Assembly: GCF_003075095.1 (NCBI RefSeq) | Contig: NZ_QCZF01000003.1 | Coordinates: 372,001-436,000, forward strand | Source of the DNA: Blastococcus litoris | Lineage (GTDB): Bacteria; Actinomycetota; Actinomycetes; Mycobacteriales; Geodermatophilaceae | Reading direction: 5' to 3' | DNA length: 64,000 bases | In this document: one piece after another, positions 26,890 through 39,376 of the stretch | Numbering within the stretch: position 1 is the first letter of the stretch | How the letters are laid out: each line of letters starts with the position of its first letter | Notes under the pieces: model-generated | Seen by the model: only the letters and a program-made list of their open reading frames with translations | What the model was told of the DNA's origin: nothing | The model's database searches: none | Position numbers and translations under genes: made by a program

Positions 26890-27101
26890 CATCGTTTTCC
26901 ACCCGAATTAGTGACCGCTGGTGGAACCTCGATCACTGAGAGCGACGACGCGACATTCGTTCACCCGGTCGTGATCTTCGATGCTTGTCCGGACGGGTGA
27001 CGGGAAGCAATGTCTCCAGCGCGGTCCGTACTGAACGACGCTCTGCCCCCGCGCGTAGGTGGCTGCCGCACGTCGCAGTCAGTCATGCCTGGGAGGCAAT
27101 C

Positions 27102-27209
27102 GTGAGCAGCAGTGTGCAGATGTCCGTCTCGAACCGTGGCGGCAAGTGGGCCCGTGGCGGCAAGTGGGCGCGTGGCGGCAAGTGGGCCCGCGGAGGCAAG
27201 TGGGCCTGA
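27102..27209 (+). CDS. 35-residue peptide with four RGGKWA repeats
   Basis: GTG start at 27102 with GGGAGG at 27091-27096, five bases upstream. The product is a 35-residue peptide: an 11-residue leader (VSSSVQMSVSN, read with initiator Met), then RGGKWA four times. It ends in TGA directly after the last repeat. The 18-nt units start at 27135, 27153, 27171 and 27189 and differ only at third codon positions. The repeat part carries four Arg, four Lys and four Trp and no acidic residue, so it is strongly cationic. It has no Cys, Ser or Thr in the repeats. A hairpin follows at 27233-27263. I do not recognise the family. An internal ATG at 27120 is an alternative start. Confidence 0.6.
   Translation: MSSSVQMSVSNRGGKWARGGKWARGGKWARGGKWA
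27135..27206 (+). repeat. Four tandem 18-bp units encoding RGGKWA
   Basis: Four direct 18-bp units sit head to tail inside the small peptide gene. Compared with units 1 and 3, unit 2 differs at one third-codon position (GCG for GCC). Unit 4 differs at two (CGC for CGT, GGA for GGC). There is no amino-acid change. Confidence 0.9.
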
Positions 27210-27232
27210 TCGGCCCCGCAGTTCCCGCGCAG

Positions 27233-27263
27233 GACGGGGCGCCCCGCACGGTGTCGCCCCGTC
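27233..27263 (+). terminator. Hairpin after the RGGKWA peptide gene
   Basis: GACGGGGCG and CGCCCCGTC form a 9-bp perfect stem with a 13-base loop, 24 bases after the peptide stop codon. There is no T-run, as is common for high-GC actinobacteria. It may separate the peptide transcript from the GGDEF-EAL gene. Confidence 0.4.
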
Positions 27264-27306
27264 CCGCCGCCCTGCGACCCGTCTCACCCGACGGGGCCGT
27301 GGAGCC

Positions 27307-27334
27307 TTGCGCGGGGCCGCCTCGCTGTTAGCCT
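27307..27334 (+). promoter_or_regulatory. Candidate promoter of the GGDEF-EAL gene
   Basis: TTGCGC at 27307-27312 and TAGCCT at 27329-27334 are separated by 16 bases. This would place the transcript start about 20 bases before the ATG. Both hexamers are imperfect matches to the housekeeping consensus. Confidence 0.35.
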
Positions 27335-27359: not shown

Positions 27360-29909
27360 ATGCAGGTACGAGTGGCCGAGCAGCAGGACCGAGCGCCGTC
27401 GCGGTCGCTGCGTCTCCGCAACCCCTGGAGCGTGGCCTGGATCGGCCTCGCCGTCGCGATCCCGATCTCCCTCTGGGTCCTCCCGCCGCTGGCCGGATCC
27501 GTCGAGCCCGTCCTCCTGATCGCGGCGTTCGTCGGCCTGGTCGCCGCGGAGTCGTTCAACGTCGACTTCGAGTTCCGGCGCCAGACGTTCGCCTGGTCCC
27601 CGAGCGAGATCGCCTTCGTCATGGCGCTCGTCGCGGTCGGTCCCGCCTGGACGGCGGTCGCCTGGGCGATCGCGGTCGGCCTCGTCGGCCTGGCGCAGGG
27701 GTACGCCCCGCCCAAGGCCGCGTTCAACGTCAGCCTCGTCGTCATCGAGGTCTGCATCGCCGTCGGCGTCCTGCGGGTGCTCCCCGCCGGGGACATCTCC
27801 GAGCCGCGGACCTGGCTGGCCTACCTGGTCGCCGTCGTGGTCGCCACCGTCCTCGGGGCCGGCCTGATCGCCGCCGCCATCACCGCCACCCAGGGCTACC
27901 CCGGGCGGGCGCTCTGGACCTCGCTGTTCATACCGGTGCTGATGGTCAGCCCGGTGGCGGTGATCGTCGGGCTGGCGGTGCTGCTGCTGGTCAGCGTCAG
28001 CCCGTGGGTGTGGCTGCTGATCGCACCGCTGCTCGTCGCGCTGGCGCTGCTCTACCGCCGGTTCGCCGCCGTCACGCGCGAGGGCCACAGCGTCGAGCGG
28101 GTCTACGACTTCGCCCGCCGCGTGGAGCAGGTCCCGCCCGACGAGTCCGGCACGCGGCAGATCGTCGAGGCCGTGCGCGAGCTGCTCAACGCCGACCGCG
28201 TGGCCCTGTGGCTGCCGCCCTACCTCGACGAGGAGCCCCGCCTCGTCGTCGTCGCCGAGAACGGCGCGGTCTGGTACGACGGCCCGGGCGACCCCGACGA
28301 CCTGTTCCGCCGCCGCGCGGTCGAGTCCACCGACGGCCCGGTCCGCGTCTCGCTCAGCCGGGCCGACGACGAGGAGGCCGCCGCGCTCGTGCGGCGGGGT
28401 GTCTCCGACCTGCTGGGCGCCGCCGTCATGACCGCCGCCGGTGAGCCCGGCTACCTCGAGGTGTGCGACCGGCGCAGCGACATCATCTCGTTCGGCGACA
28501 GCGACAGCGCCGCCCTGGACTCGATGCTCACGCACGTCAACGCGGCCATCCGGCACCAGCAGCTGCTGACCCAGATCCGCTACGACGCCGACCACGACCG
28601 GCTCACCGGGCTGCCCAACCGGCAGCGCCTGGCCGCCGAGATCGACCAGCTCCTCTCGGCCGACCCGGTCACCGCGCGCGCCGGGCTGATCCTCGCGGCG
28701 CTGGGCAACTACACCGACGTCACCGACACCCTCGGGCACGCGGCCAGCGACGAGCTGCTGCTGGTCACCGCCGGTCTGCTGCGCGAGCACGCCCCGCCGA
28801 CGGCGCTGCTGGCGCGGATGGAGGGCGAGCAGTTCGCCGTCCTGCTGCCCGGGCTGTCCCTGCAGGCCACCGAGCGCGCCGCCCGGCGGCTGCGGGAGGC
28901 GGCCTCCACGCGGGCCCGGGTCGCCGGCCTCGACCTGGAGGTCACGCTCACCATCGGCGTCGCCGCGGCCCCGGTGCACGGCACGGACTCGGGGATGCTC
29001 ATGCAGCGCGCCGACGTGGCGCTGCTCGCCGCCGCGGACTCGGGCGGCGTGGCCAGCTACCACCCGGTGCTGGACCAGCAGAGCCTGCGCCGCCTGCAGC
29101 TGGGCACGGAGCTCGAGCAGGCGATGGCCGACGGTCAGATCAGCGTCGTCTTCCAGCCGATCATCGACGCCCAGACCTCCGACATCGTCTCGGTCGAGAC
29201 GCTGGTCCGGTGGGCGCACCCGCGCTACGGCTCGATCCCCCCGGACGACTTCATCCACCTGGCCGAGCAGATCGGCCGCATCGGCGCGGTGACCGACCAC
29301 GTCCTGGACCTGGCGCTCGCGCGCTGCCGGCGGTGGCTCGACCAGGACATCGCCCTGTCGGTCGCGGTGAACCTGTCGGTGCACTGCCTCACCGAGCCCG
29401 ACCTCGTCGCCCGCGTGCGCCGCGCCCTGCAGCGCCACCGCGTCCCCGGCGAGCTGCTGACCCTCGAGCTGACCGAGGGCAGCGTCGTCGACGACTCGGT
29501 GCGCGACAGCACCGTCCTGGCCGACCTCCACGGCCTCGGGCTCCGGCTGTCCATGGACGACTTCGGCACCGGCTACTCGTCGCTCTCGCAGCTGCGCCAG
29601 CTGCCGATCGACGAGGTCAAGATCGACAAGTCCTTCGTGCTCGGGATGTCGACCAGCCAGGGGGAGTCGTTCATCGCCCGGTCGATCATCGAACTGGCCC
29701 ACAACCTGGGCCTGCGCGTGGTCGCCGAGGGTGTCGAGGACGAGCTGACCCGCAACCTGCTGGCGGAGATGGGCTGCGACAAGCTGCAGGGCTTCCTGGT
29801 CAGCCGGCCGCTGCCCGACGACCGCCTGGAGAGCTGGCTCCTGGCCCGGACCGGGGTGCGCAAGGCCGCGCCGGGAGCCACCCACCGGAGGCTGTTCGTC
29901 CGCACCTGA
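27360..29909 (+). CDS. Membrane GGDEF-EAL protein with degenerate GGDEF (cyclic di-GMP turnover)
   Basis: An 849-residue protein: about seven transmembrane helices (residues 25-240), a GAF-like region (about 255-395), GGDEF domain (about 410-560) and EAL domain (about 580-830). The diguanylate cyclase motif reads EGEQF at residues 488-492 instead of GGDEF, so cyclase activity is doubtful. The EAL motif is ETL at 613-615, keeping the catalytic Glu. DDFGTGYS (733-740), EVKIDKSF and VAEGVED are intact, so cyclic di-GMP phosphodiesterase activity is plausible. ATG at 27360 follows AGGGGAA very closely; GTG at 27372 would give better spacing. It lies 150 bases after the RGGKWA peptide gene. Confidence 0.9.
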   Translation: MQVRVAEQQDRAPSRSLRLRNPWSVAWIGLAVAIPISLWVLPPLAGSVEPVLLIAAFVGLVAAESFNVDFEFRRQTFAWSPSEIAFVMALVAVGPAWTAVAWAIAVGLVGLAQGYAPPKAAFNVSLVVIEVCIAVGVLRVLPAGDISEPRTWLAYLVAVVVATVLGAGLIAAAITATQGYPGRALWTSLFIPVLMVSPVAVIVGLAVLLLVSVSPWVWLLIAPLLVALALLYRRFAAVTREGHSVERVYDFARRVEQVPPDESGTRQIVEAVRELLNADRVALWLPPYLDEEPRLVVVAENGAVWYDGPGDPDDLFRRRAVESTDGPVRVSLSRADDEEAAALVRRGVSDLLGAAVMTAAGEPGYLEVCDRRSDIISFGDSDSAALDSMLTHVNAAIRHQQLLTQIRYDADHDRLTGLPNRQRLAAEIDQLLSADPVTARAGLILAALGNYTDVTDTLGHAASDELLLVTAGLLREHAPPTALLARMEGEQFAVLLPGLSLQATERAARRLREAASTRARVAGLDLEVTLTIGVAAAPVHGTDSGMLMQRADVALLAAADSGGVASYHPVLDQQSLRRLQLGTELEQAMADGQISVVFQPIIDAQTSDIVSVETLVRWAHPRYGSIPPDDFIHLAEQIGRIGAVTDHVLDLALARCRRWLDQDIALSVAVNLSVHCLTEPDLVARVRRALQRHRVPGELLTLELTEGSVVDDSVRDSTVLADLHGLGLRLSMDDFGTGYSSLSQLRQLPIDEVKIDKSFVLGMSTSQGESFIARSIIELAHNLGLRVVAEGVEDELTRNLLAEMGCDKLQGFLVSRPLPDDRLESWLLARTGVRKAAPGATHRRLFVRT

Positions 29910-38847: not shown

Positions 38848-39243
38848 ATGGCCAAGATTTCCAGCGCGGACCTGCTCGACGCCTTCAAGGAGATGACCCT
38901 CCTGGAGCTGTCCGACTTCGTGAAGCAGTTCGAGGAGACCTTCGACGTCACCGCTGCTGCCCCCGTGGCCGTCGCGGCCGCCGCCCCCGCCGGTGGCGGC
39001 GGTGGCGGTGGCGACGAGGCCGCCGCCGAGCAGGACGAGTTCGACGTCATCCTCGAGAGCGCCGGCGACAAGAAGATCCAGGTCATCAAGGAGGTGCGCG
39101 GCCTGACCTCGCTCGGCCTCAAGGAGGCCAAGGACCTGGTCGACAACGCGCCGAAGCCGGTCCTGGAGAAGGTCGCCAAGGACGCCGCTGACAAGGCCAA
39201 GGCCGCCCTCGAGGGCGCCGGCGCCACCGTCACCGTCAAGTGA
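38848..39243 (+). CDS. rplL: 50S ribosomal protein L7/L12
   Basis: Stalk protein that recruits translational GTPases, present in several copies per ribosome. The N-terminal dimerisation helix ([20 protein letters not shown]), an Ala/Gly-rich hinge with a run of Gly near residue 51, and the C-terminal domain ([20 protein letters not shown], then [16 protein letters not shown]) are all clear. The length is 131 residues. Start ATG, with AAGGAGA upstream. A 47-bp tandem duplication begins at the TGA. Confidence 0.97.
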
Positions 39244-39341
39244 CCCCTCACCCGGCGGTCTCGATCGCCGGGTACGTCACGGTCACGTGACCCCTCACCC
39301 GGCGGTCTCGATCGCCGGGTACGTCACGGTCACGTGACCCC
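39241..39341. repeat. 47-bp tandem duplication after rplL
   Basis: Positions 39241-39287 are repeated exactly at 39288-39334, and the first seven bases recur at 39335-39341. Each unit carries an 8-bp inverted repeat (ACCCGGCG ... CGCCGGGT, 8-base loop) and ends in GTCACG. The first unit starts at the rplL stop codon. The sequence before it (GTCACCGTCAAG) resembles the unit end. Confidence 0.9.
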
Positions 39342-39376
39342 CTCCCCGGTCTGACCGGGGAACGCACCACCGCACG

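Follow-up and report, generated by a model that had tools for sequence, protein, structure and literature searches.

A selected tryptophan-repeat peptide gene next to a membrane GGDEF-EAL gene in Geodermatophilaceae, and its possible role as a partner of the enzyme's membrane domain

A gene of 35 codons in Blastococcus litoris encodes a peptide that ends in four RGGKWA units and, to judge from its sequence, looks like the shortest form of a Trp-repeat peptide that is encoded upstream of a membrane enzyme in several actinobacterial families. It is near certain that this open reading frame is a real, conserved gene under selection. The gene is linked to that of a GGDEF-EAL enzyme with an N-terminal transmembrane (TM) domain, and Trp repeats that were searched for without regard to the enzyme lie next to the same TM domain elsewhere. 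The findings suggest that the peptide is an undescribed partner of the enzyme, and a functional pairing of the Trp-repeat peptide with the TM domain is judged probable. The preliminary description of this DNA, which was made from the sequence alone, had noted the neighbouring enzyme gene and missed the enzyme as a recurring partner of Trp repeats in other families. All coordinates below refer to the window, i.e., the whole stretch of 64,000 nucleotides that was analysed (contig NZ_QCZF01000003.1, positions 372,001 to 436,000), and are given with their strand.

The peptide gene, its leader and its surroundings

The peptide gene (27102..27209, +) begins with a GTG codon at 27102, five bases after the ribosome-binding site GGGAGG (27091..27096, +), and ends with TGA at 27207–27209. 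Its product, VSSSVQMSVSN(RGGKWA)4, consists of an 11-residue head and of four units that are encoded by 18 bp each (27135..27206, +; read from the sequence and found by TRF with period 18, 4.1 copies and score 125), the sole differences among these four stretches being three third-codon positions. When the sequence was re-read, each of these details was found as the preliminary description had given it, including the three silent differences, and the same holds for a hairpin 3′ of the gene (27232–27241 pairs with 27255–27264) and for a GGDEF-EAL reading frame that starts 150 bases past the stop codon, at 27360. The genome (4.63 Mb in 87 contigs) contains one match of the full-length peptide, a second one (E 0.157) being noise. 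No match was obtained with Pfam profiles for two family peptides or with NCBIfam profiles for four, which agrees with the earlier remark that no described family resembles the peptide, and the open-access literature, searched by titles and abstract starts, gave nothing on a Trp-repeat peptide or on its pairing with the enzyme.

The DNA 5′ of the peptide gene is strongly conserved, and therefore a covariance model of 95 positions, R1, was built from 29 leaders. Under this model the conserved leader of the window (27011..27104, +) comprises two hairpins followed by the ribosome-binding site: hairpin 1 (27019–27054, +) has the stem GCGCGG/CCGCGC and a conserved loop, and hairpin 2 occupies 27061–27080 (+). 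A promoter-like site (26985..27013, +; read from the sequence), composed of TTGTCC (26985–26990), a 17-nt spacer and CAATGT (27008–27013), is mostly, not strictly, kept in the 30-row alignment A1. R1 matched 101 of 112 Geodermatophilaceae genomes (92 of 96 among those of good quality), and of the 52 genomes matched in an order sample of 298, 51 belong to Geodermatophilaceae. The one match elsewhere (G238, E 0.0031) is weak, adjoins a reading frame that resembles the start of carA and was dropped; a second match in G091 was dropped as weak (E 0.009). An exact leader pattern, stricter than R1 to the point of giving a single Modestobacter record, was found over 84,980 genomes in 56 stretches, nearly all of them named Blastococcus, Geodermatophilus, Klenkia or Modestobacter. 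The exceptions are one "Geodermatophilaceae bacterium" and one "Bacillus sp. AZ43", and the latter record (L236, SPQJ01000015.1), which carries the Geodermatophilaceae leader, is probably misnamed. In 103 aligned leaders 85.4% of the cells pair and 10 of the 17 pairs have changed on both sides; for an alignment that was itself fitted to the structure, the pair score was reached by 0 of 500 shuffles, and all slid versions scored lower. Rfam holds no family that matches the leader (two weak matches there lie far below the gathering score), and its scan of the window at the gathering score returned four tRNAs and nothing else.

Downstream of the stop codon lies a terminator-like hairpin with a 10-bp stem, a 13-nt loop and no T run (27232..27264, +; read from the sequence). 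A stem of at least 8 bp (loop of at most 12 nt) was found within 110 nt past the stop in 83 of 101 loci vs. 30 of 101 base-shuffled ones, a loop limit that leaves the window hairpin itself outside. It is followed by a promoter-like site of the enzyme gene, TTGCGC-16-TAGCCT (27307..27334, +; likewise read from the sequence), and such a box lies between the two genes in 76 of 102 loci. These sequence features suggest that the peptide gene has its own promoter and terminator, and the peptide gene and the enzyme gene are probably separate transcription units.

Several further observations were made in this DNA. The loop CTCTGCCCCC of the leader (27040–27054) is complementary, by eye, to GGGGCAG, which opens the terminator-like hairpin in many relatives, and long-range pairing of the loop with the downstream hairpin is possible. 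Motifs of the GTGAC/GTCAC type are repeated 5′ of the peptide promoter, in the window (26900–26985) and in several genera (by eye). Second copies of the leader were recorded near the peptide locus, at L122 8246–8337 (−), L127 8815–8913 (−) and L145 10094–10183 (−), in the genomes G039, G044 and G062; those of G039 and G044 precede small reading frames of 70 and 77 residues, TM-like by eye. Elsewhere in the window, at 39228–39349, a 47-bp tandem duplication of 2.6 copies spans the last codons, stop and hairpin of an rplL-like gene (named by eye).

Repeat units across the family and selection on them

A protein search of the 112 Geodermatophilaceae genomes found the same anatomy in several genera. 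Of 107 leader matches 102, in 101 genomes, precede a short reading frame with one to five Trp hexapeptides, mostly R-x-x-[KR]-W-x, and these 102 genes were retained by length and Trp content; the five matches left out are those of G238, the second one of G091 and the second leaders of G039, G044 and G062. The peptides are 18–42 residues long and contain one unit (1 gene, in G065), two (35), three (42), four (21) or five (3). When one modal unit per gene is taken, position 5 is Trp in 102 of 102 (parsing was on Trp), position 1 is Arg in 94 and position 4 is Lys or Arg in 97 (58 K, 39 R), while position 3 is occupied by 14 different residues. In one gene (G012) a TTG, probably not the real start, was taken as the first codon, and in G003 and G081 extra residues lie between units. 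The preliminary description had named stops or frameshifts in the repeats of close relatives as what would speak against the peptide; no such interruption was found in the repeats of the 102 genes, apart from G036 (contig C152), which stops inside the third unit, and this result is not fully independent because the genes had been chosen by length and Trp content.

The units are identical in amino acids within 89 of the 101 multi-unit genes and differ between species. Codon differences between units of the same gene are 233 synonymous vs. 16 nonsynonymous, where about 25% synonymous would be expected, and since the units are identical within genes and different between species with such an excess of silent changes, the peptide is under selection. 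In the 100 genes that were counted by position (G101 was left out of these counts, kept in those of 102 genes and had its unit set by hand for the tree), synonymous differences at unit positions 1 to 6 number 75, 73, 32, 23, 0 and 30 and nonsynonymous ones 8, 2, 1, 1, 0 and 1; at least one synonymous difference was found in 88 of them. Position 3, which varies between species, thus shows 32 synonymous vs. 1 nonsynonymous difference within genes. The units are not merely fresh copies, because silent sites have diverged while the amino acids, even the residue that is free between species, have stayed unchanged. That the silent pattern of the window gene reflects a selected peptide, and that repeat number should vary among relatives while synonymous change dominates, had been proposed from the one gene, and both proposals are upheld by the family. 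Taken together, the recurrence of the anatomy in 102 genes of 101 family genomes and the synonymous excess between units mean that the window array is more than chance.

How often the unit has switched was counted on a quick enzyme tree of 101 rows, with the last unit of each gene and as parsimony minima: position 3 changed 39 times, position 6 35 times, position 4 22 times and position 2 18 times, positions 1 and 5 never changed, and the copy number changed at least 24 times. A class-wide DNA pattern of three R-x-x-[KR]-W-x units matched 121 of 394 genomes; a control pattern matched widely too, and therefore no conclusion was drawn from it.

The membrane enzyme and Trp repeats in other families

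The gene that follows the peptide gene (27360..29909, +) encodes a TM-GAF-GGDEF-EAL protein, in which Pfam identifies GAF, GGDEF and EAL. Its TM domain (about residues 26–262) has no Pfam family, and the matches of a sequence profile to solved structures lay chiefly in the GAF part. By eye, the GGDEF motif is degenerate (EGEQF) and ETL replaces EAL, with DDFGTG intact. At the window locus the Trp-repeat peptide lies directly upstream on the same strand, and in the family the enzyme gene is found downstream of the peptide gene in 101 of 102 cases, the remaining case being a contig end. This linkage inside the family proves little alone, because hadA, hadB and yajQ are also conserved around the locus (tblastn of window reading frames). 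Divergent genomes of the family say more about the linkage: in G067, where the leader goes unrecognised by R1, there are two enzyme loci, and an R-x-G-R-W-G peptide precedes each; G071–G073 have W-N-G repeats at the place of the peptide, those of G072 after a signal-peptide-like start; and G070 has neither of the two genes between a tad-like gene and rpmG. G074 was left out of judgement as a contig end.

A search for enzyme homologs matched 81 of 200 genomes of the order at E up to 1e-120, 53 of these genomes lying outside the family, and 34 of 296 genomes of the class at E up to 1e-100. Upstream regions were examined for 22 of the 53 matching genomes of the order outside the family, mostly those with the best scores and no random pick, for 28 class loci (including two same-order genomes; 6 of the 28 have too little upstream sequence) and for 8 full-length family paralogs, with 12 GGDEF-EAL paralogs that match solely outside the TM domain, all from one family genome (G065), as a control. 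Small peptides were found upstream of homologs, e.g., with FVDGNTWT five times or SGALWG twice, and others with signal-peptide-like starts end in DWN, IWG, TWN or VWL (by eye). Larger upstream proteins end in arrays of GLRWN, GAGWR, RGSSW or SGATW; the one of these Trp-tailed proteins that was scanned contains Peptidase_S8 (Pfam) and is a subtilase, and 4 of 5 that were viewed have signal-peptide-like N termini (by eye). By eye, a small reading frame or protein that carries a Trp motif at its end or close to it is present at 17 of the 22 order loci, weakly in G121, a softer count than the scripted one of 14 given below; in G123 and G136 the motif is internal and absent from the end, and in G158, G264 and G249 none was seen.

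A loose Trp criterion was passed upstream by 14 of 22 order, 8 of 22 class and 5 of 8 family-paralog loci and by 3 of 12 controls (Fisher 7e-9 vs. background and 0.12 for 27/52 vs. 3/12 control), so that 8 of the order and 14 of the class homologs failed it. Its background is high (16.6%), and therefore a strict criterion was used. A strict tandem-Trp reading frame lies upstream in 3 of 22 order, 5 of 22 class and 3 of 8 family-paralog loci and in 0 of 12 controls, against a background of 6 in 2744 reading frames, 4 of these 6 rows (3 loci) being antisense to a peptide array itself, by position. The Fisher test gives 3e-16 vs. background and 0.11 for 11/52 vs. 0/12 control.

The association was also approached from the repeats. 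Of 296 class genomes, 36 were matched by a generic Trp-repeat query that made no use of the enzyme, and the best 30 loci were taken. Similarity to the window enzyme was found downstream in 14 of the 30, two of these over TM and GAF alone; at L408 it begins about 1.5 kb downstream. A model of the TM domain, built from 19 sequences (alignment A3), matched a same-strand downstream reading frame in 18 of the 30, or in 14 of 26 when four genes that belong to the training alignment (G446, G433, G419, G402) are removed. Where 700 bp or more of sequence lie downstream of the array, the TM domain follows in 17 of 23 (13 of 19 without the four training genes), and in the other 6 of the 23 no TM-domain protein was found. 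The arrays that adjoin a TM-domain gene have 5–23 copies. As to specificity, among 7,863 frames the model gave a single match in each of 99 of the 100 family loci and none in the remaining one, family members being part of its training set, and it matched 0 of the 12 control paralogs. Four of the 18 loci (L392, L393, L419, L421) carry the TM domain and gave no tblastn match with the window enzyme, which is why the TM domain is taken as the common part; L392 shows a GAF domain and L421 GAF and PAS, and in all four the output domain lies beyond the available stretch. A second pair is present in the B. litoris genome itself (L422; G000 contig C4), where a subtilase-like protein with a signal-peptide-like start and 17 units of the GVSWS type is followed by a protein with the TM domain, a canonical GGDEF and EAL motifs, the similarity beginning 107 nt past the stop. 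In other families the Trp repeats of several partners are non-basic (FVDGNTWT, GVSWS, SGATW), and what is common to all is Trp with small residues.

How the pair might act, and what it resembles

The explanation that we favour is that the stand-alone Trp-repeat peptide would be a dedicated partner of the adjoining TM-GAF-GGDEF-EAL protein, the motif elsewhere in actinobacteria taking the form of small Trp-motif peptides or of C-terminal tails of secreted-looking subtilases. The partner is probably a ligand, and most likely its basic, Trp-bearing units would attach to the multi-helix TM domain at the membrane, which would tune the breakdown of c-di-GMP by the EAL domain. The chances that the peptide is a ligand which tunes c-di-GMP through the enzyme appear evenly balanced. 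Co-adaptation with a species-specific partner surface would fit, because the units are identical within species and are switched between species. By eye, no signal peptide was seen in the family peptide, unlike in the subtilase-like partners and several small peptides elsewhere, and the family peptide therefore lacks, by eye, the export feature of the proposed pair; as a guess, its basic residues could stand in for a signal peptide by attraction to the membrane.

The pair may also work from the inside out, so that the enzyme senses c-di-GMP and holds or releases a Trp-tailed partner, the short peptide being a tether or decoy. Subtilase-like Trp-tailed proteins do adjoin the enzyme elsewhere (Peptidase_S8 confirmed in the one tested) and the degenerate GGDEF (EGEQF) of the window enzyme is compatible with a sensor role, but the family peptide comes without a protease, the EAL-domain motifs look mostly intact and the second pair of the same genome has a canonical GGDEF, so this arrangement is considered unlikely. 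Control of the enzyme gene by ribosomes on the Trp-rich reading frame, i.e., by a leader peptide or nascent chain, seems a poor prospect. A short frame whose Trp codons recur regularly and whose leader is structured, just 5′ of a membrane-protein gene, would suit it, and in some relatives a signal-peptide-like start occurs together with a Trp motif at the other end, as in arrest peptides, of which SecM is an example. Yet in most loci a terminator-like hairpin stands between the two genes, a promoter-like box of the enzyme gene is present in 76 of 102, position 4 accepts Lys as well as Arg (58 K, 39 R), and similar repeats form long tails of larger proteins (5–23 copies beside the TM-domain gene).

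A free cationic Trp/Arg/Lys peptide could act on nucleic acid, membranes or competitors independently of its neighbour, and a net charge of +3 to +9 with no acidic residue within the repeats of all 102 genes agrees with that; this is improbable, however, in view of the several Trp-repeat partners of other families that are not basic, and it leaves the linkage to the TM-domain gene unexplained. For the RNA-binding and antimicrobial roles that the preliminary description had listed, no evidence was found. We regard as very improbable that the tandem motif, like the Arg-rich region of Cle proteins, binds c-di-GMP and buffers or presents it: aromatic, Gly and basic residues do repeat beside a c-di-GMP enzyme, but the motif is unlike that of Cle, and acidic or neutral Trp repeats stand in the same place elsewhere. 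The least probable reading, entertained in the preliminary description, is a multi-core RiPP precursor with Trp crosslinks, to which cores identical within a gene and different between species, as in multi-core precursors, and the recurrence of W-x-R would be suited, but which hardly survives the lack of a conserved leader peptide (heads of 3–21 residues, different between genera and as short as MNE), of a maturase among the syntenic neighbours checked (tblastn of window reading frames; yajQ, GGDEF-EAL, hadA, hadB and others) and of more than one SPASM match in the whole genome, on a different contig (C6), or the near-universal presence of the gene in the family, which most natural-product genes do not have.

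Among known systems, LapD is a membrane GGDEF-EAL protein that holds or releases the periplasmic protease LapG. The likeness is that a membrane GGDEF-EAL protein in which the GGDEF is degenerate has its own extracytoplasmic partner, in some cases a protease, next to it; here, however, subtilase-like proteins or bare Trp-repeat peptides take the place of LapG, and a multi-helix TM domain with GAF stands where LapD has a periplasmic domain. A LapG-family protease partner was not found, the S8 peptidase being that of the one protein scanned elsewhere, with none at the window locus. YfiR, the periplasmic regulator of the membrane diguanylate cyclase YfiN, is likewise a small partner the gene of which adjoins that of a membrane c-di-GMP enzyme, but it is a folded protein, whereas here the partner is a repeat peptide with units that change in concert. 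MASE-type domains (MASE9, PF20972) also form an N-terminal multi-helix domain ahead of signalling domains, but the window protein has no MASE match; MASE9 comes nearest to the TM domain, and weakly, since 1 of 19 relatives matched at E 0.78, and L392 matched MASE9 weakly (E 0.022, below the curated cut-off). Cle peptides with a tandem [Y/F]xGP[D/E][R/K]R motif suffice for binding of c-di-GMP (PMC5677366). Like them, the family peptides are short tandem arrays in which aromatic, Gly and basic residues recur, but the Cle motif, for which binding is demonstrated, differs from RGx[KR]Wx and belongs to a CheY-like protein; compared by eye with the motif as given there, the family units do not contain it.

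In the biology of these bacteria the finding may reach further than one locus. The inputs of many membrane c-di-GMP enzymes are unknown. For a group of actinobacterial enzymes a Trp-repeat partner encoded next door would be an input that can be tested, and the pairing would suggest a role for the Trp-repeat tails on secreted subtilases. Both the pairing and the leader can be searched for in any genome, and the array is a clean case, with units that are identical within a gene and have switched many times between species. Tentatively, and with rather more doubt than confidence, Trp tandem repeats might be the signature of an undescribed actinobacterial signalling system, in which an unnamed membrane domain senses a free, secreted or subtilase-tail ligand and passes the signal to c-di-GMP enzymes, perhaps to further outputs as well, the ligand of Geodermatophilaceae having been reduced to a bare array that switches in concert. 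Since its units do so between species, the array could act as a species-specific signal.
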